Shown here piece after piece: positions 24,671 to 42,751 of a stretch of 46,084 nucleotides of DNA. This DNA comes from Pseudorhodobacter sp. (GTDB lineage Bacteria; Pseudomonadota; Alphaproteobacteria; Rhodobacterales; Rhodobacteraceae): positions 1-46,084 of the forward strand of contig JAHEBX010000007.1 in NCBI GenBank assembly GCA_024642045.1, given 5' to 3'. Position 1 is the first letter of the stretch. Each line of letters starts with the position of its first letter. A model generated the notes under the pieces. That model worked only from the letters and a program-made list of their open reading frames with translations. It had not been told where the DNA came from and did not search any database. The position numbers were made by a program, and so were the translations under genes.

Positions 24671-25278
24671 TGCGAAAGTTCAGCGGCGATCAGCTTTTGG
24701 TGGCGTCTCACAACCGCGGAAAGCTGGAAGAAATAGCCACTTTGCTTGCGCCGTTGGGAATTGCAGTTGTTTCTGCGGCCGACTTAGGACTACCCGAGCC
24801 CGCCGAAACTGAAACGACCTTTGTGGGGAATGCCCGGATCAAGGCGCATGCAGCCGCGCAGGCAACAGGCCTGCCTGCGCTATCAGATGACTCAGGTATT
24901 TCGATCGACGCCCTGGACGGAGCTCCTGGCGTCTACACTGCAGACTGGGCGGAAACGTCAAGCGGTCGTGACTTTGGCATGGCGATGGAGAAGACTTGGC
25001 AAAAGGTGCTGAAAACTGGGAAGTCAGGGCCATTTTTAGCCCAGTTTCGCTGCACGTTGGTCTTGGCCTGGCCAGACGGACATGATGAGGTCTTTGAGGG
25101 CATCATGAAGGGGTGTGTTGTATGGCCGCCTCGCGGGGTTAACGGCCATGGCTATGATCCAATTTTTAGGCCTGATGGATATGCACTGACCTGTGGAGAG
25201 ATGGATGCTGCAATGAAGAATACCATAAGCCACAGGGCGATGGCATTCGGCGCGCTTGTGAGCAACTGTTTCACGTGA
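24670..25278 (+). CDS. rdgB: RdgB/HAM1 family non-canonical purine NTP pyrophosphatase
   Basis: The enzyme hydrolyses dITP, XTP and related nucleotides to monophosphates, which keeps damaged purines out of DNA. The protein has 202 residues from the ATG at 24670 (a GTG 3 nt earlier is in frame). Motifs: VASHNRGKLEEI at the N-terminus, TFVGNARIKAHAAAQATGLP, ALSDDSGISIDALDGAPGVY with the catalytic Asp, WPPRGVNGHGYDPIFRPDG and the C-terminal ISHRAMAF. It is translationally coupled to rph. Its last codons and stop are formed by a perfect parS site (25267-25282). Confidence 0.95.
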   Translation: MRKFSGDQLLVASHNRGKLEEIATLLAPLGIAVVSAADLGLPEPAETETTFVGNARIKAHAAAQATGLPALSDDSGISIDALDGAPGVYTADWAETSSGRDFGMAMEKTWQKVLKTGKSGPFLAQFRCTLVLAWPDGHDEVFEGIMKGCVVWPPRGVNGHGYDPIFRPDGYALTCGEMDAAMKNTISHRAMAFGALVSNCFT

Positions 25279-25282
25279 AACA
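25267..25282. other. parS centromere site 1 (ParB binding)
   Basis: TGTTTCACGTGAAACA is a perfect match to the 16-bp palindromic chromosomal parS consensus. It overlaps the stop codon of rdgB (the TGA lies inside CACGTGAAAC). It is 1.2 kb from the end of parB and about 8.8 kb from the presumed origin. Confidence 0.95.
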
Positions 25283-26495: not shown

Positions 26496-27401
26496 CTATT
26501 GCCGCGCGAGGTCCCTAGGCATAGACGAAAGTGCCTGACAAAGAAGATCCAAGCCCTCGAGGCTTCGATAAGATATCGTCAGCTTTCCGCCGCCGGTCGT
26601 GCCTTCATGGTCAATCCTTACCCCCATTTTCAGATTAGCCGCCAGGTCTGCTTCAAGCGCTCTTGTGTCAGCATCTTTTTCGGTGTTTCGCGCCGAGCGT
26701 CTCGGCTTGTCAGACATAATGTCCGACCGCCGTACCAATTCCTCCGTCGCCCTAACCGTTAAGTTCTTACCAACAACCAGTTTAGCCAATTCCAGCGCAT
26801 TTGGCGTGGTAATTAACGCTCTCGCGTGCCCGGCAGTGAGCGTTCCTGATTTCACCATTTGCTGCACTTCCTCCGGCAGCGCCAGAAGACGAAGCAAGTT
26901 TGCGATGTGGCTGCGGCTCCGAGAGAGAGCCTCCGCAATCTTCTCCTGGGTGTGGCCAAACCTCTGCATGAGTTGCTTGTAAGCTAGGGCCTCTTCGATT
27001 GCATTTAGCTCTTCTCTTTGAATATTCTCAATAATTGCAATTTCGAGAACTTCAGAATCTGTAAATGCCCGCACAATTGCTGGCAGCTCGTGAAGTTGAG
27101 CTAACTGCGCGGCACGCCATCTCCGCTCGCCCGCAACAATTTCATATGAGTCTCCCCCTTCTACCTGCCGAACGATAAGAGGCTGAATAACGCCTTTTTG
27201 AAGCAGGGAGTCAGCGAGATCACGTAATGCCTGAGGCTCAAATGTCCTCCTCGGCTGATCAGGATTTGGAACAAGTCGGTCAATGGGAATCATAAGCTCG
27301 CTCTTCGGTGTCTCTGTTTCTGGCGCTGAATTCAAATTCACGTCCGCCATCAACGCCGATAAACCTCGACCAAGGCCTCTCCTATCTGATTTCTTCTCCA
27401 T
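26496..27401 (-). CDS. parB: Chromosome partitioning protein ParB
   Basis: ParB is the CTP-dependent DNA clamp that loads at parS and spreads. The 301 residues start with the ParA-interacting tip (RRGLGRGLSALM). The N-terminal domain has IPIDRLVPNPDQPRRTF, the CTP-binding GERRWRAAQLA and ENIQREELNAIEEALAY. The helix-turn-helix for parS is HTQEKIAEALSRSRSHIANL, followed by LLALPEEVQQMVKSGTLTAG. The C-terminal dimer domain follows a charged linker. Its ATG overlaps the parA stop (TGATG). Three perfect parS sites lie within about 5.5 kb. Confidence 0.97.
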   Translation of the reverse strand: MEKKSDRRGLGRGLSALMADVNLNSAPETETPKSELMIPIDRLVPNPDQPRRTFEPQALRDLADSLLQKGVIQPLIVRQVEGGDSYEIVAGERRWRAAQLAQLHELPAIVRAFTDSEVLEIAIIENIQREELNAIEEALAYKQLMQRFGHTQEKIAEALSRSRSHIANLLRLLALPEEVQQMVKSGTLTAGHARALITTPNALELAKLVVGKNLTVRATEELVRRSDIMSDKPRRSARNTEKDADTRALEADLAANLKMGVRIDHEGTTGGGKLTISYRSLEGLDLLCQALSSMPRDLARQ

Positions 27402-28225
27402 CAGACGTTCTCCCTTTTCTTTGGTTGCAGCGCATGGCGATCCAATACCTCAACTGCCAATGCTCGGTATGCCTCCGCACCCTTAGAGCTTCCATCATAC
27501 TCCAAAACAGATTGCGCGAAGGATGGCGCCTCACTCAAACGCACATTTCGTGGGATTGTGGTTTTGAAAACCAATTCCCCTAAAGTTTGACGCGCGTCAC
27601 CCTCTACCTGCTGAGATAATCGGTTTCTGCTATCAACCATAGTCAAGACAACTCCCTCTATCCGTAAACTTGGATTCGCGCTTCTACGGACTTCTCGAAT
27701 GGTCAGCATCAATTGGGAAAGGCCTTCCAACGCGAAAAACTCCGCCTGCAGCGGCACGAGAACGGCGTCAGAGGCGACGAGGGCATTCACAGTTAAGAGA
27801 CTAAGTGAAGGGGGGCAGTCTATCAAAATGAAGTCAAAGCCCAAGATTTCTACTCGGGGATCCCGCAAAGCATCCTGCAAAAGAAAGCTACGCTTTTCAT
27901 TAGCCACAAGCTGTATGTCCGCCGACGACAGGTCTGCACTCGAGGGACAGATAGAGAGCCCGGCTATTTGAGTTGTTGCAATAACATTCGTCATCGGCAA
28001 CTCATCAATCAATACATCATAACTGGTCTTTGATCGGCTTGAGGGATGAAATCCCAGCCCAGTCGAGGCATTTCCCTGCGGGTCCAAGTCAACGAGGAGC
28101 ACTTTCGCACCCGCTTCCGCTAAAGCGGATGAAAGGTTTATCGAAGTCGTTGTTTTCCCGACCCCGCCCTTCTGGTTTGCCACCGAAAGAATGATAGGCT
28201 TTTTGGCAATCAAATTGCTACGCAT
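27401..28225 (-). CDS. parA: Chromosome partitioning ATPase ParA (Soj family)
   Basis: ParA is the DNA-binding ATPase that moves ParB-parS complexes. From the ATG at 28225 it has 274 residues (a TTG two codons earlier is possible). The deviant Walker A KGGVGKTT is at residues 19-26, with the signature lysine. Others: VLLVDLDPQGNASTGLG (A'), FDFILIDCPPSLSLLTVNAL (Walker B region) and VPLQAEFFALEGLSQL. There is no N-terminal helix-turn-helix, so it is the chromosomal type. The start overlaps the end of rsmG by 8 nt and the stop overlaps parB. Confidence 0.97.
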   Translation of the reverse strand: MRSNLIAKKPIILSVANQKGGVGKTTTSINLSSALAEAGAKVLLVDLDPQGNASTGLGFHPSSRSKTSYDVLIDELPMTNVIATTQIAGLSICPSSADLSSADIQLVANEKRSFLLQDALRDPRVEILGFDFILIDCPPSLSLLTVNALVASDAVLVPLQAEFFALEGLSQLMLTIREVRRSANPSLRIEGVVLTMVDSRNRLSQQVEGDARQTLGELVFKTTIPRNVRLSEAPSFAQSVLEYDGSSKGAEAYRALAVEVLDRHALQPKKRENV

Positions 28226-28844
28226 CTGCAATATCTTTCAGAACTAATATTCGACCGCTCGGGGATGTTTGGCTTTGGTGTTCTACCAAATCAAATTTCC
28301 ACTTTTTGTGTGCAGCAGCGACCTCTTGGTCGGCACCAGCTCCTTTAGGAAAAATGGCTGTACCGCCTGTCGCGAGATGCCTTTTTGCATGGCCAATCAG
28401 GTCTACAAGCGGGGCAAGTGCGCGAGCTGAAATGACCGAAGCGCCGCGCGGTTCTAAGTCCTCAATTCTAACGACCTCAACCTCGCAATCCAACCCAAGG
28501 ACTCTGACTGACTGAGACAAGAACGCTGCTTTTCGTCTGTCAGACTCAACCAAAGTCACTTTTAAATTGCTGCAACTCATTTCTGCCAAAATTGCAATGA
28601 TGACGCCAGGAAATCCCCCGCCGGATCCCAAATCAACCCAGCTGTCGGCAACTTCCGGTTTCAAATTAAACAATTGTGCCGAATCTAGGATGTGCCGATC
28701 CCAAACATGTTCAAGCCCGCCGCGTGAGACGAGATTAATCGCGGGATTCCACCTTTCTATGAGCGCGCGGAACTCTCTCAGTTTTTCTAGTGTTTCACGT
28801 GAAACATCAAGCCACGCCGGCAATTCATTAATTGTCCCAGTCAT
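28218..28844 (-). CDS. rsmG: 16S rRNA (guanine527-N7)-methyltransferase RsmG (GidB)
   Basis: RsmG methylates G527 of 16S rRNA using SAM. The 208 residues include [28 protein letters not shown], the SAM-binding [18 protein letters not shown] and [14 protein letters not shown], and [11 protein letters not shown]. Near the N-terminus, [10 protein letters not shown] is encoded by the second parS palindrome (VSRET). It overlaps mnmG by 4 nt at its start and parA by 8 nt at its end. Base composition is clearly less GC-rich than in genes outside this zone. Confidence 0.97.
28791..28806. other. parS centromere site 2, inside the rsmG coding sequence
   Basis: TGTTTCACGTGAAACA is a perfect parS palindrome. 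In the reading frame of rsmG it encodes the VSRET residues near position 14-18, so both functions share the same bases. Confidence 0.96.
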
Positions 28845-30718
28845 TTAGTTGCCTGACGCTTCAACTTCTTGACCTGCGCCAGGATAAGCATCAACGCAGC
28901 GGGAGTCATCCCTTCGATCTTGCCGGCTTGAGCCAAGTTTTCAGGTCGCGATTTGCCCAGTTTTGTAGCAAGCTCGGTACTTAAGCCTGGAAGGCCTATA
29001 TAATTGATTTCATTTGGAATATAGGTGTCCTCTCCCTTTTTGAGAGCGGTTGCTTCGCTCAATTGCCGAGAGGTGTACTGAGAATACAGGGCATCGGTTG
29101 CCACTTGGATCTTAATTGCATGTTCATATTTTGTAAACTCCGGCACCAATCGCTCAATTTCAGGAAGCCCCACACCACTATAGGAAAGCAGAGCTAACGC
29201 TGTGCGTTTCGGTCCGTCAGGAGCTAACTTAACTCCAAAATCAGCAGCCTCTCGACTTGAAATAGTCGCCACAGAAAGCGTGTCTCTTGCACGCATGACA
29301 TTTTCAACCTTTTTCAAAAATGAAGATTTCCGTAACTCAGAAACACAGCCCGCGTCGATCCCGACCGGGGTCAACCGCTGATCTGCATTATCGGCCCGCA
29401 TCGTCAATCTGAATTCTGCCCGAGATGTAAACATTCGATAAGGCTCGGAAACGCCACGCGAAGTTAGGTCATCGACCATTACGCCGATATAGCTATCTGC
29501 GCGGCCAAATTTTATTGAATTTTGACCAAGCGCTTGCCGAGCTGCGTTCATGCCAGCAACAAGACCCTGCGCAGCTGCCTCTTCGTAGCCAGTTGTTCCA
29601 TTGATCTGGCCGGCCAAGTAAAGGCCGCTCAGCCCCTTCGCCTGCAACGCAAGGTCTAATTGCCGCGGATCGAAATAGTCATATTCAATCGCATAGCCTG
29701 GCTGCAAAATAATTGTATTCTCTAGCCCTACGATTGATCTTACATATTCATGCTGAACTTCAGCGGGCAAAGATGAAGAAATACCGTTCGGATAGACTGT
29801 GTGATCATCCAGCCCTTCTGGCTCAAGAAATATCTGGTGAGAGGTCTTATCCGCAAATCTAACAATTTTATCTTCAAGAGATGGACAATATCGAGGGCCC
29901 ACGCCTTCGATATGCCCCCCATACATCGCGGATCGGCCCAAATTTGCCCGGACAATATCATGCGTTCGCTCATTTGTATTGGTGATGCCACATTCAATTT
30001 GTTTCGCCTCTGGCACCTTATTCATAAACGAAAATACTGTTGGATCATCATCACCCGGTTGAGACTCTAGGATATCCCAATTGATAGTTCGGCCGTCAAG
30101 CCGCGGTGGTGTGCCCGTTTTCAGCCGGCCTCGGTGCGGCAACAGCTCCGAAAGTTGATCAGCCAACAATATAGAAGGCTTGTCGCCGACTCTACCGCCA
30201 GGCTTTTTCTTGTCACCAATATGCATAACTCCGTTCAAGAAAGTACCGGCAGTCAGCACAACGGCGACAGATGTGATGCAGGTATTATCACTCAGCTGAA
30301 CACCATTAACAGCGCCGGAAGATTCCAGGAGTCTTACGACTTCTCCTTCAATGATTTCTAGTGTCGGCGTATCGGCAAGCAGATCCTGTATCGCCTTTCG
30401 ATAAATCTTTCGATCTGCCTGAGCGCGCGGCCCTTGGACCGCCGGCCCCTTTCTCCGGTTTAACAAGCGAAACTGAATACCCGCACGGTCAGCCGCACGC
30501 GCCATGAGGCCATCCATCGCATCTATCTCACGAACAAGATGACCTTTACCGAGCCCGCCAATTGCTGGATTGCACGACATCACGCCGATCGCTTCGCGCC
30601 GCAAAGTGATCAGGGCTGTGCGTACACCCATTCGTGCGGCCACCGCGGCGGCCTCGACGCCTGCGTGGCCACCGCCAATCACCACTACATCAAAATGTTT
30701 CACGTGAAACAGCCTCAT
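28841..30718 (-). CDS. mnmG: tRNA uridine-5-carboxymethylaminomethyl(34) synthesis enzyme MnmG (GidA)
   Basis: With MnmE, this FAD protein modifies U34 in the wobble position of several tRNAs. The 625 residues are the normal length. The N-terminus MRLFHVKHF contains residues from a parS site and is followed by the FAD-binding [20 protein letters not shown]. Others: [20 protein letters not shown], the RFRLLN-type [55 protein letters not shown] and [20 protein letters not shown]. The two-helix C-terminus ([20 protein letters not shown]-like) interacts with MnmE. It overlaps mnmE by 4 nt. Confidence 0.98.
30696..30711. other. parS centromere site 3, inside the mnmG start region
   Basis: TGTTTCACGTGAAACA, a perfect parS palindrome, begins 7 nt after the first base of the mnmG start codon. 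It encodes the FHVKH segment of MnmG. Of the three sites it is the closest to the presumed origin, about 3.3 kb away. Confidence 0.96.
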
Positions 30719-32022: not shown

Positions 32023-33294
32023 TTAAGCGTTCATAGAGTCAAAGAATTCCGCGTTGCTCTTGGTCTGTTTCAACTTACCGATCAAGAATTCGATCGCATC
32101 TGTCGTCCCCATCGGATTGAGGATTCGCCGCAACACATAGGTCTTCTGCAGATCCATCTTTTCGATCAATAGGTCCTCTTTCCGCGTGCCCGACTTAAGA
32201 ATGTCGATAGCAGGGAACACGCGCTTGTCAGCAACCTTACGGTCCAACACGATCTCGCTGTTACCAGTGCCTTTGAACTCTTCAAAAATAACTTCATCCA
32301 TACGGCTGCCGGTATCGATCAAAGCCGTCGCAATGATTGTCAGCGATCCGCCCTCTTCGATATTGCGTGCCGCACCAAAGAACCGTTTTGGGCGCTGCAG
32401 AGCATTCGCATCCACACCACCCGTCAGAACCTTTCCACTCGACGGCACCACGGTGTTAAACGCCCGACCCAAACGGGTAATGCTGTCCAGCAAAATCACC
32501 ACATCACGCTTGTGCTCAACCAGCCGCTTGGCCTTCTCGATCACCATTTCAGCCACCGCCACATGGCGCGTCGCAGGCTCGTCGAAGGTCGACGAGACAA
32601 CCTCGCCTTTCACCGATCGCTGCATGTCGGTCACCTCTTCTGGCCGCTCGTCAATCAGCAAAACGATCAGATAGCACTCCGGATGATTCACGGCGATTGA
32701 ATTGGCAATGTTTTGCAACAATACCGTCTTACCCGTCCGCGGCGGCGCCACGATCAAGGCCCGTTGCCCCTTACCAATCGGGCAGACCAGATCAATAATC
32801 CGTGCAGACCGATCCTTGATCGTCGGATCTTCCACTTCCATCTTCAACCGCTCATCGGGATAAAGCGGGGTCAGGTTGTCAAAGTGAACCTTATGCCGCG
32901 CCTTTTCCGGATCATCAAAGTTGATCTTGGTCACCTTCGTCATGCAGAAATATTTTTCATTCTCACGCGGCGCCTGGATCACCCCTTCAATGGTATCCCC
33001 CGTGCGCAAGGAAAACTGCCGCAAGATATCAGGGCTGACATAAATATCATCAGGTCCCGGCAGGTAGTTCGCCAATGGCGAGCGCAAAAACCCGAACCCA
33101 TCCTGCAAAACCTCCAGAACTCCGTCGCCACCAATCTCCCAACCTTCCTCGGCATGCTCTTTCAGAATTGAGAACATCATCTCGCCCTTGCGCATCGAGG
33201 GCGCATTTTCGATCTCCCATTCCTCCGCCATCGCCAGCAGCTCGGCCGGCGTTTTGGCTTTCAGATCAGCAAGGTTCAAATGCTCAACAGTCAT
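32023..33294 (-). CDS. rho: Transcription termination factor Rho
   Basis: Rho is the hexameric RNA translocase for factor-dependent termination. The 423 residues are the normal length. They include the Rho_N helical region ([20 protein letters not shown]), the RNA-binding cold-shock domain ([20 protein letters not shown]), Walker [15 protein letters not shown], Walker [17 protein letters not shown], the Q-loop [20 protein letters not shown], the R-loop region [20 protein letters not shown] and [20 protein letters not shown]. The gap upstream to hemJ is 123 nt and holds a palindrome (33375-33387). Confidence 0.98.
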
Positions 33295-33417: not shown

Positions 33418-33882
33418 TCAGTATTTCACGATAACCGAGATCACGATCAAAATCATCAAAACCGTCGGCACCTCGTTCATAAGCCGATACTGCCGGCCAG
33501 TCCGGGTATTCGTCCCTGCCGCAAACTCTTTGCGCCGCCACCCAAGCCAATGATGAAACCACGTCATCCCCAGCACCGACGCCGCCTTCACCCAAGGCCA
33601 AAGCTGCGACCAATCCACAATCCCCGGCGTCATGACCAAGGCCAGCCCAAACACCCAGGTCGCGACACCAGCAGGATTTATAATCGCCTTGAACAGCAAC
33701 CTCTCCTGATGCTGGAACAACAAGTCCATGTCGCTGCCAGCCGCAACACCCTGCTTTCTCAGTCCTTCAACATGATAGACAAACAGCCGCGGCATATAAA
33801 ACAGCCCTGCCATCCAGGCGATCACTGACATCACATGTAGCGATTTGATCCACGGATAAAAGGTCGCCAGAACGTCACCCAC
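33418..33882 (-). CDS. hemJ: Protoporphyrinogen oxidase HemJ
   Basis: HemJ oxidises protoporphyrinogen IX in the inner membrane, the penultimate step of heme synthesis. I chose the GTG at 33882, which has GAGGTG about 5 nt upstream and gives 154 residues, near family length; earlier in-frame starts would run into the origin region. Conserved segments: WIKSLHVMSVIAWMAGLFYM with the essential His, PRLFVYHVEGL, and the later membrane spans (VATWVFGLALVMTPG, WPWVKAASVLGMTWFHHWLG) with FRLMNEVP-type RLMNEVPTVLMILIVISVIV at the end. Four transmembrane helices are apparent. It heads the leftward run into rho and mnmE. Confidence 0.94.
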   Translation of the reverse strand: MGDVLATFYPWIKSLHVMSVIAWMAGLFYMPRLFVYHVEGLRKQGVAAGSDMDLLFQHQERLLFKAIINPAGVATWVFGLALVMTPGIVDWSQLWPWVKAASVLGMTWFHHWLGWRRKEFAAGTNTRTGRQYRLMNEVPTVLMILIVISVIVKY

Positions 33883-33939
33883 AGGACACCTCACTTCTTT
33901 TCTTCTTCTTAAAGAATAGATTCTAGAAAGATAGATGAT

Positions 33940-34275
33940 GTTGTAGGGGCCGTGGATAACAGAATTCATCACGTCCTCCCATAGTTTATCCCCAAGCCAA
34001 ATCTTGTGGAAAACAAGTCACCAATTCTCTGAACGCCATAAAGTATTAATAATATCAATTAGTTGATGATCACTCGGTAACCCGAAAACTTCCCCACAGC
34101 CTGCGGAAAACGCTGTCTCCCCCAGCCCTGCGGAACCGCTATCCCCATGTGCGTAACTGTCGCGGCGGTCTGGCAAAAGCTTGACAAATCCCCAGCCGCC
34201 CTGCCTTTTCGCTACAACTTCGGCTTATCCAGAAACCCGCCCGCAAGAACAAACAGAGTTTTTCCACAGCGTCCC
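33940..34275. other. Presumed chromosomal replication origin (oriC)
   Basis: The 410-nt gap between hemJ and maf has no gene. Using TTATCCACA as the DnaA box, five 9-mers match at 8 of 9 positions: 33951-33959 (minus), 33986-33994 (plus), 34005-34013 (minus), 34225-34233 (plus) and 34260-34268 (plus). Weaker 7-of-9 matches are at 34090-34098 and 34139-34147. An AT-rich stretch at about 34038-34072 is a candidate unwinding element and contains an exact IHF consensus. Genes point leftward on the left (hemJ to parB) and rightward on the right (maf to dnaQ), as expected for forks leaving this point. parABS and mnmG-rsmG are close by, as in other alphaproteobacterial origins. Experimental proof is absent; the position is inferred. 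Confidence 0.82.
34053..34065 (+). other. IHF-type binding site inside the presumed origin
   Basis: TATCAATTAGTTG fits the integration host factor consensus WATCAANNNNTTR at every defined position. It lies in the AT-rich core between DnaA-box clusters, the same relation seen in characterised origins where IHF bends DNA to help unwinding. Confidence 0.55.
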
Positions 34276-34292
34276 TCTCAAAGGCAAACCCC

Positions 34293-34892
34293 ATGTCTCG
34301 CCCCCTTTTGCTGGCTTCTGGGTCCACCATCCGCCTGCATCTTTTGCATCAGGCTGGCTTGACCGTGACGGCATCCGCTGCTCGCATCGACGAATCTGTC
34401 ATCCGGTCTGCGCTTGAAGCCGAATCTGCCAAACCCCGCGAGATTGCGGATGCCTTAGCCGAAATGAAGGCCCGCAAACTTGCCGATAAAAACCCCACCG
34501 CTTTGGTGCTTGGCTGTGATCAGGTTCTGAGTTTTCAAGGCCGGATATTTGGCAAACCTGAAACCCTGACCGAGGCGCGCGATCAGCTGCGCTGTTTGCG
34601 CGGTCACACCCATCAGCTGATCTCTGCGCTGGTGCTTTACGACGAGGCCAAGCCAGTATGGCGCCACGCCGCAACCGCCAGCTTGACCATGCGCGCCTTT
34701 TCCGACAGCTTTCTTGACGCCTATCTCGCCCGCAATTGGCCCTCGGTCCAGACGTCCGTCGGCGGCTATAAGCTGGAGCAAGAGGGTATCCGCTTGTTTA
34801 GTGCGGTGGTTGGCGATTACTTTACCATCTTGGGCCTACCGCTGCTTCCTTTGCTGAACTACCTCGAAATCAGAGGCTTTATTGAGACATGA
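34293..34892 (+). CDS. Maf family nucleotide pyrophosphatase
   Basis: Maf proteins hydrolyse non-standard or modified nucleotides. The 199 residues contain [18 protein letters not shown] at the N-terminus, ARIDE, the conserved KARKLADK helix, [16 protein letters not shown] and [15 protein letters not shown]. The DQVL type of active site resembles the YceF (7-methyl-GTP) subgroup more than YhdE (dTTP/UTP), which I take as a tentative hint. An AAAGG site lies 8 nt before the ATG. It is first in the rightward operon beside the origin, and its stop overlaps aroE (ATGA). Confidence 0.93.
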
Positions 34893-40880: not shown

Positions 40881-41477
40881 ATGGCGCGTCGAAGAACCTT
40901 GCGCCCCGAGGAAGAGCAGCTTTGGCACGCTGTTGCGCGCACCATCTCGCCCATGCACCGCAGCGCCCCCAGTTTTCCGGCGCCCGAACCGTATGCAGTG
41001 AAGACCGATACCGCCGCCCCGCTCCTTCACAGTCAGCCCCGCTTGCCGCTGTTTCGGCTGGGCGAGAAATCCCGCGTTCAGAACAACCATGACCTTGCGC
41101 CAACGGTTTCGGAAAGTCTTTCGTCGGCACCGCTGCAGATGGATGCGAAAACCCACGGCAAAATGACCCGTGGCAAGCTGGCACCCGAGGCGCGGATTGA
41201 CCTGCACGGTTTGACGCTGGCCGAGGCGCATCCCGAGCTGATCCGCTTTATCCTCAATGCGCAATCGGCGGGGCTTCGGCTGGTGCTGGTGATCACGGGC
41301 AAGGGAAAGCGCCGCGACGATACCGGACCAATCCCGCAGCGGATGGGCGCGTTGCGGCATCAGGTGCCACAATGGCTGCGGATGGCGCCCTTGGGCCCCG
41401 CCGTTTTGCAGGTGACCGAGGCACATTTGAAACACGGCGGATCGGGCGCTTACTACGTTTATCTGCGCCGTCGATAG
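40881..41477 (+). CDS. Smr/MutS2 domain protein
   Basis: The 198-residue protein (GAGGG 7 nt before the ATG) has a low-complexity N-terminal half and a C-terminal Smr domain from about residue 105: ARIDLHGLTLAEAH, LVLVITGKGKRRD and HLKHGGSGAYYVYLRR. Stand-alone Smr proteins often have nuclease activity; the substrate here is unknown. It ends a plus-strand group of three (tim44-like, mltA, smr) and converges with the hydrolase gene with a 21-nt gap. Confidence 0.93.
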   Translation: MARRRTLRPEEEQLWHAVARTISPMHRSAPSFPAPEPYAVKTDTAAPLLHSQPRLPLFRLGEKSRVQNNHDLAPTVSESLSSAPLQMDAKTHGKMTRGKLAPEARIDLHGLTLAEAHPELIRFILNAQSAGLRLVLVITGKGKRRDDTGPIPQRMGALRHQVPQWLRMAPLGPAVLQVTEAHLKHGGSGAYYVYLRRR

Positions 41478-42605: not shown

Positions 42606-42751
42606 GGGCCTGTTTTTCCCTGTTCGCAACGCTGGGTCAACCCCGAGCATTCCACCTGCGAAGCGGCGTGATTGTCTGCAATAACTATCCTTGTATTTCA
42701 GATCCTTATAGTTTCTCAGGCCTGAAACATCTGGAAACGCGCATTTCCGAT

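Follow-up and report, generated by a model that had tools for sequence, protein, structure and literature searches.

The hemJ-maf intergenic gap is, judging from its sequence and with a probability that we put at about 95%, the DnaA-dependent replication origin (oriC) of the main chromosome. The window, i.e. the whole stretch of 46,084 nt that was analysed, is one 46-kb contig of a 3.49-Mb draft genome consisting of 265 contigs (95.9% complete). An earlier note on this DNA had already placed an oriC between hemJ and maf, and this is borne out by the cluster of DnaA boxes, the low duplex stability, the synteny and the parABS surroundings. Furthermore, boxes, AT peak and a trinucleotide array recur in relatives, and in Ruegeria pomeroyi the sampled skew shows the signs expected of an origin at this gap. 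What was directly observed are the sequence elements and their positional conservation, the synteny, and the skew of this one relative. The interval proposed earlier, 33940-34275, lies within the gap; it starts too late, thereby omitting the segment 33896-33935 and about half of the array, and the origin interval is to be extended to 33883-34292.

Layout of the hemJ-maf gap

The features of the region are collected in Table 1. The genes parB-parA-rsmG-mnmG-mnmE-rho-hemJ on the minus strand are followed by the gap and then by maf-aroE-coaE-dnaQ on the plus strand, which agrees with the coding-strand switch and the divergent genes described before. According to the alignment with relatives the GTG at 33880-33882 (minus strand) would be the start of hemJ, and a longer hemJ reading frame reaching 33972 is probably a start-codon artefact, since the relatives mostly carry a start codon at the same aligned place. 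With hemJ starting at 33882 the gap indeed measures the 410 nt stated in the earlier note. In several analyses its start was set at 33886 and not at 33883; the three bases concerned touch no element. The hexamer TTGACA is found inside the gap at 34181-34186 (plus strand), and 17 of 20 close relatives have it in the corresponding alignment position. It is a possible -35 element of maf, and transcription may run through the origin on its maf side. The parAB genes and the three perfect parS sites, which had been located 3-9 kb away, were recovered as well: all three parS sites lie 3.2-8.6 kb from the gap (0 expected), and at ≤1 mismatch they are the sole parS sites found in the draft genome, all on the window's contig.

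Table 1. Features of the hemJ-maf gap and its surroundings (positions in the window).
Feature	Position	Strand	Remark
parS	25267-25282		perfect 16-mer
parB	26496-27401	-	
parA	27401-28231	-	
parS	28791-28806		perfect 16-mer
parS	30696-30711		perfect 16-mer
rho	32023-33294	-	
hemJ (UPF0093)	33418-33882	-	pointing away from the gap
hemJ-maf gap, probable oriC-bearing intergenic region	33883-34292		410 nt
Candidate DNA unwinding element	33896-33935		least stable 40 bp of the whole window (nearest-neighbour scan)
Trinucleotide array TAG-ATG-ATG-TTG-TAG	33932-33946	+	DnaA-trio-like, putative trio role
G+C spacer GGGC	33947-33950		4 nt, between box and array
DnaA box TTATCCACG	33951-33959	-	adjoining the array; proposed loading box
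DnaA box TTATCCCCA	33986-33994	+	
DnaA box TTTTCCACA	34005-34013	-	
AT-rich core of the earlier note	34039-34078		second least stable 40 bp of the window (nearest-neighbour scan)
Perfect match to IHF consensus WATCAANNNNTTR	34053-34065	+	predicted, presumed binding
Four two-mismatch DnaA-box-like sites (34090, 34102, 34139, 34148)	34090-34156		weak
DnaA box TTATCCAGA	34225-34233	+	
DnaA box TTTTCCACA	34260-34268	+	maf-proximal
maf	34293-34892	+	pointing away from the gap

Five one-mismatch matches to the DnaA box TTATCCACA are present in the gap in both orientations, corroborating the five 8-of-9 matches claimed earlier. None of 2000 dinucleotide shuffles of the gap reached five (mean 0.08, maximum 2). 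The whole window contains 12 such boxes including the five in the gap, compared with an average of 4.92 per 46 kb in 100 shuffles of the window. Where the maf-proximal box lies, 19 of 20 close relatives also have a box in the alignment, with one mismatch or none. The motif TCCCCA, which we take to be the weak W-box of Caulobacter, occurs four times in the gap versus 0.43 expected, a number that only one of 2000 shuffles gets to.

Genome-wide, 52 TTWTCCACA sites were obtained (35 for the reversed control pattern), and their sole pair less than 500 bases apart is the one in this gap. One-mismatch boxes are found at 376 places, hardly more than the 368 of the reversed control; among the about 100 of these 376 places that were listed, there are at least six other pairs less than 500 bases apart and none with three boxes. 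The same-genus genome G007 has one TTWTCCACA in its hemJ-maf gap and two close pairs elsewhere. These two pairs, at G007:C11:83419-83454 and C7:531028-531115, consist of closely spaced TTTTCCACA copies in inverted orientation. The neighbourhood of dnaA, the usual alternative location of an origin, was rejected, a single box being found there in 4.3 kb. This lone TTTTCCACA lies 70 nt upstream of dnaA (G000:C35:20682-20690) and would suit autoregulation of dnaA.

Concerning the AT-rich core, the two 40-bp segments with the lowest stability in the window both fall into the gap, one of them being the core itself and the other, at 33896-33935, the probable DNA unwinding element, whose melting is predicted from its stability. 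The latter segment is conserved in close relatives. In the same ranking of the window's 40-bp segments, 42679-42718 comes fourth. Within the core a perfect match to the IHF consensus WATCAANNNNTTR is found. The same 13 positions also fit WATCA-N5-WTR, the IHF form printed in PMC1914354.

Recurrence in relatives and the trinucleotide array

Loci of relatives were sampled via the maf protein, taking the best 80 of 323 relatives; many of these 80 are Ruegeria and not independent. The 74 loci with a hemJ match were used for the gap counts and the six without were left out. In these 74 relatives the hemJ-maf gap is 334-467 nt long and carries on average 2.27 one-mismatch boxes, compared with 0.071 per 400-nt tile in 3415 control tiles from the same loci. 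At least three boxes are present in 31 of the 74 gaps versus 2 of the 3415 tiles, and one gap (L030) is boxless. TCCCCA likewise averages 1.18 in the relatives' gaps and 0.10 in the control tiles. The boxes tend to recur at about 320-350, 290-310, 250-285, 180-190 and 10-60 nt upstream of maf, and AT content is highest (0.68-0.78) at 201-240 nt upstream of maf. An IHF consensus with at most one mismatch was obtained in 55 of 75 gaps versus 560 of 3415 control tiles, and an exact one in 12 of 75 gaps versus 45 of 3415 tiles, both contrasts being inflated by AT-richness; the IHF-like matches in the gaps are mostly on the plus strand, 218-230 nt upstream of maf.

In the six relatives left out (L007, L019, L045, L048, L063 and L068) there is no hemJ match between rho and maf, and the rho-maf gaps span 503-589 nt. 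At least one box is present in five of them and none in L045. As hemJ together with a full origin would hardly fit into a gap of this length, hemJ seems to have been lost in these six relatives while the boxes remain in five.

Next to the hemJ-side box the window displays an array of trinucleotides, which reads GAT GTT GTA GTA GAT in the 3'→5' direction, three of the five triplets being without a central adenine. Read along the minus strand, box TTATCCACG is followed by GCCC, by CTA CAA CAT CAT CTA and then by a T-rich tract. A comparable arrangement of DnaA box, short spacer and DnaA-trios is known as the basal unwinding system (BUS; PMC8287927, PMC6669920), and the published rule demands that a DnaA box have a minimum of three 3'-NAN-5' trios within 16 nt (PMC8287927, PMC6669920). 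The window has the BUS layout, sharing the element order of box, spacer and array, the short spacer of 4 nt of G+C, the three-base period and the 3'-GAT-5' closest to the box; it differs in that the first trio is followed by three with a central T, 3'-GTT/GTA-5'. No match to the strict rule (at least three 3'-NAN-5' within 16 nt of a box) was found in the window. Among 75 gaps 63 pass this rule anywhere and 41 at the hemJ-side box, and at the hemJ-side place the central-adenine rule does not hold in the window and 33 other gaps. Since 95 of 375 mononucleotide-shuffled gaps pass it anywhere compared with 63 of 75 real gaps, the strict rule is enriched, not specific. The authors of PMC8287927 themselves suspected trios without a central adenine.

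The array was further aligned on the box alone: a hemJ-side box is present in 71 of 75 gaps and absent in four, leaving 55 non-redundant gaps (36 near-type and 19 far-type). Counted from the box, the 36 near-type gaps have C with a frequency of 0.67, 0.64, 0.75 and 0.81 at positions 5, 8, 11 and 14, T with 0.75 at position 6, and A with 0.61, 0.75 and 0.61 at positions 9, 12 and 15. The 19 far-type gaps (Ruegeria and others) exhibit a similar array nine bases further off the box with one irregular triplet. In-phase C-N-N runs of at least four were observed in 28 of 55 gaps versus 11% of shuffles, the window having a run of six, and within runs of at least four the trio-centre base on the box strand is A 82 times, T 43 times and C 20 times, the centre of the trios behind the first thus being T in most cases when read in trio orientation. 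The motif TACA[ACT]{0,5}CATC on the box strand is found in 47 of 75 gaps versus 24 of 3415 control tiles, its nearest copy lying 51-84 nt from the hemJ end. The array motif occurs beside the gap in L103, L106 and L107, and none was found there in L104, L105, L108 and L109. A 22-base box-plus-array pattern with at most two mismatches, matching 84 of 198 genomes of the family and 36 of 190 of the class, was discarded as not specific, the reversed-pattern controls being alike. A search for literature on DnaA-trios and Rhodobacter gave no title dealing with such an array, and we do not claim the array to be unreported.

Tentatively, as a possible rather than a probable reading, the base pattern would suggest that origins of this lineage open via a variant DnaA-trio array, in which one canonical 3'-GAT-5' next to the box is followed by trios with a central T (3'-GTT/GTA-5'). 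If this were true, the DnaA-trio code would be looser than thought, or the DnaA of Rhodobacteraceae would read a different trio.

A related question of detail is which segment opens within the oriC. The unwinding element might be the middle AT-rich patch at 34039-34078, the hemJ-side array then being e.g. a leader or promoter of hemJ. The AT peak of the 74 relatives is at this place and the patch is the second least stable segment, but it carries the IHF consensus at a fairly fixed place, and the lowest stability of all, together with the published geometry of box, spacer and trios, belongs to the hemJ-side segment. We consider the middle patch an unlikely unwinding element, although not a far-fetched one, and both segments could open.

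GC skew and the position of the probable origin

The cumulative skew of the window reaches its minimum at ~44 kb, which is ~10 kb to the right of the gap; across the gap itself the skew steps up from -0.24 to -0.07 with unchanged sign. Averaged over the relatives (76-79 loci per bin), the 4 kb to the left of maf have a skew of -0.07 to -0.18 and the first 2 kb to its right one of +0.02 to +0.04, followed by -0.06 to +0.01 beyond. A strongly negative stretch left of maf is common to the window and L002-L004.

For Ruegeria pomeroyi the skew was derived from 20 sampled 12-kb stretches of a 3.82-Mb contig, one of them with 2500 N. All 10 stretches of the left arm are negative and 8 of the 10 on the right arm are positive, and a second sign change occurs half-way round. 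The fine curve falls steeply to the gap (about 198 kb), where its slope breaks, and then runs nearly flat to a slightly lower value at 254 kb, so that the local curve bottoms out ~55 kb to the right of the gap. In G017, a genome of the same family in one contig, the left arm is also negative in 10 of 10 stretches, and positive values occur in only 5 of 10 stretches of the right arm.

A role of the boxes as a DnaA-controlled promoter region of maf or hemJ or as a DnaA-titrating cluster, with initiation elsewhere, appears very improbable. The conserved TTGACA does lie between the boxes and maf, and DnaA boxes do occur by promoters, as the one upstream of dnaA illustrates, but nine box-like sites (five with one mismatch and four with two) on both strands within 410 nt, accompanied by two low-stability segments and by an array beside the outermost box, argue against it. 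So do the genome's sole parS set found, which is nearby, the skew arms of R. pomeroyi, which flip at the syntenic place, and the genome's lack of a second TTWTCCACA pair less than 500 bases apart.

Within the host genus the skew gives a less clear picture. It alternates in blocks of ~10-40 kb or more with an amplitude of ~0.1 (G005:C61, G007:C4 and the window). In G005 steep blocks of both signs with many sign changes extend over 360 kb, the local minimum being at 292 kb, ~9 kb right of the gap (about 283 kb); in G007 the skew is negative 70-270 kb right of the gap, and the samples of G002, G003 and G011, all of the same genus, contained no skew switch at the gap. Gene orientation was rejected as the cause of these blocks, with r = -0.008 in G005 (90 bins); for the window and G061 the correlation of skew and gene strand is r = 0.21 (23 bins) and r = 0.40 (47 bins). 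With its many sign changes in 360 kb and no link to gene strand, the skew of G005 consequently does not track replichores in a simple manner. Within the host genus, the skew is neither for nor against the hemJ-maf gap as origin.

That the active origin of the host genus has shifted ~10 kb to the right or further, to the local skew minimum, and that the gap is a relic, is scarcely credible: the minima of the window and of G005, the negative skew of G007 and the segment at 42679-42718 would fit, but no box cluster is located there (the one-mismatch box nearest to 44 kb is at 41248), the skew of G005 flips sign repeatedly irrespective of gene strand, and boxes and array are kept in close relatives, unlike in a relic.

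Known origins and a possible course of initiation

As an oriC of Rhodobacteraceae the gap belongs to a known kind, since Kopejtka et al. 2019 (PMC6699656) predicted oriC for 101 closed chromosomes of the family on the basis of DnaA boxes, the minimum of GC disparity and closeness to parAB; eight of their 109 strains were without a clear oriC (PMC6699656). The hemJ-maf gap agrees with these origins in boxes and parAB, whereas GC disparity does not point to the site in the host genus; flanking genes are not named for them in the passages concerned. For curating origins in alphaproteobacteria parAB is described as a good anchor (PMC8116508).

Caulobacter-type origins are located between hemE and COG1806 and contain CtrA sites (PMC1914354, PMC4468827). 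The Cori of Caulobacter crescentus, as far as described in these sources, shares with the gap the intergenic position, a length of ~400 nt, about five DnaA boxes, an IHF-type site and AT-richness, but the flanks are hemE and COG1806 there and hemJ and maf here. In the genome studied hemE sits on another contig (C102), and COG1806 (PF03618) was not found in this 95.9%-complete assembly. CtrA sites of the form TTAA-N7-TTAA are missing from the gap at ≤1 mismatch, and CtrA regulation via this motif was rejected; of the relatives' 74 gaps, 3 contain the motif exactly and 33 when one mismatch is allowed. With both the hemE/COG1806 flanks and the CtrA sites missing, the gap would be an alphaproteobacterial oriC but not one of the Cori flank type.

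The oriC of Escherichia coli has its unwinding element at one end with a box beside it, an IHF site inside, more boxes beyond and many GATC. The gap shares the end-placed candidate unwinding element, the adjoining box, the internal IHF-type site and the further boxes, and differs in its flanking genes and in having one GATC compared with many in E. coli.

From these elements we infer binding of DnaA and IHF, melting and initiation itself, for which we propose the following course. DnaA would collect on the boxes spread over 33951-34268, and the molecules at 33951-33959 would seed a filament leftward over the 4-nt G+C spacer onto one strand of the array 33932-33946. This filament could then melt the adjoining low-stability segment 33896-33935, while an IHF-type bend at 34053-34065 may return the maf-side boxes to the array. 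Two forks would depart divergently, and the new origins would be segregated by ParB bound to the three parS sites, which lie 3-9 kb to the left.

In kind, the gap would be an ordinary oriC, and the array with its central T a mildly new detail. The replication start is thereby located, with the probability given above, in a draft genome from a genus in which it cannot be read from the GC skew, and the corrected interval now takes in the probable melting site. With the conserved central-T array it could furthermore be tested directly how strictly the DnaA-trio rule applies.
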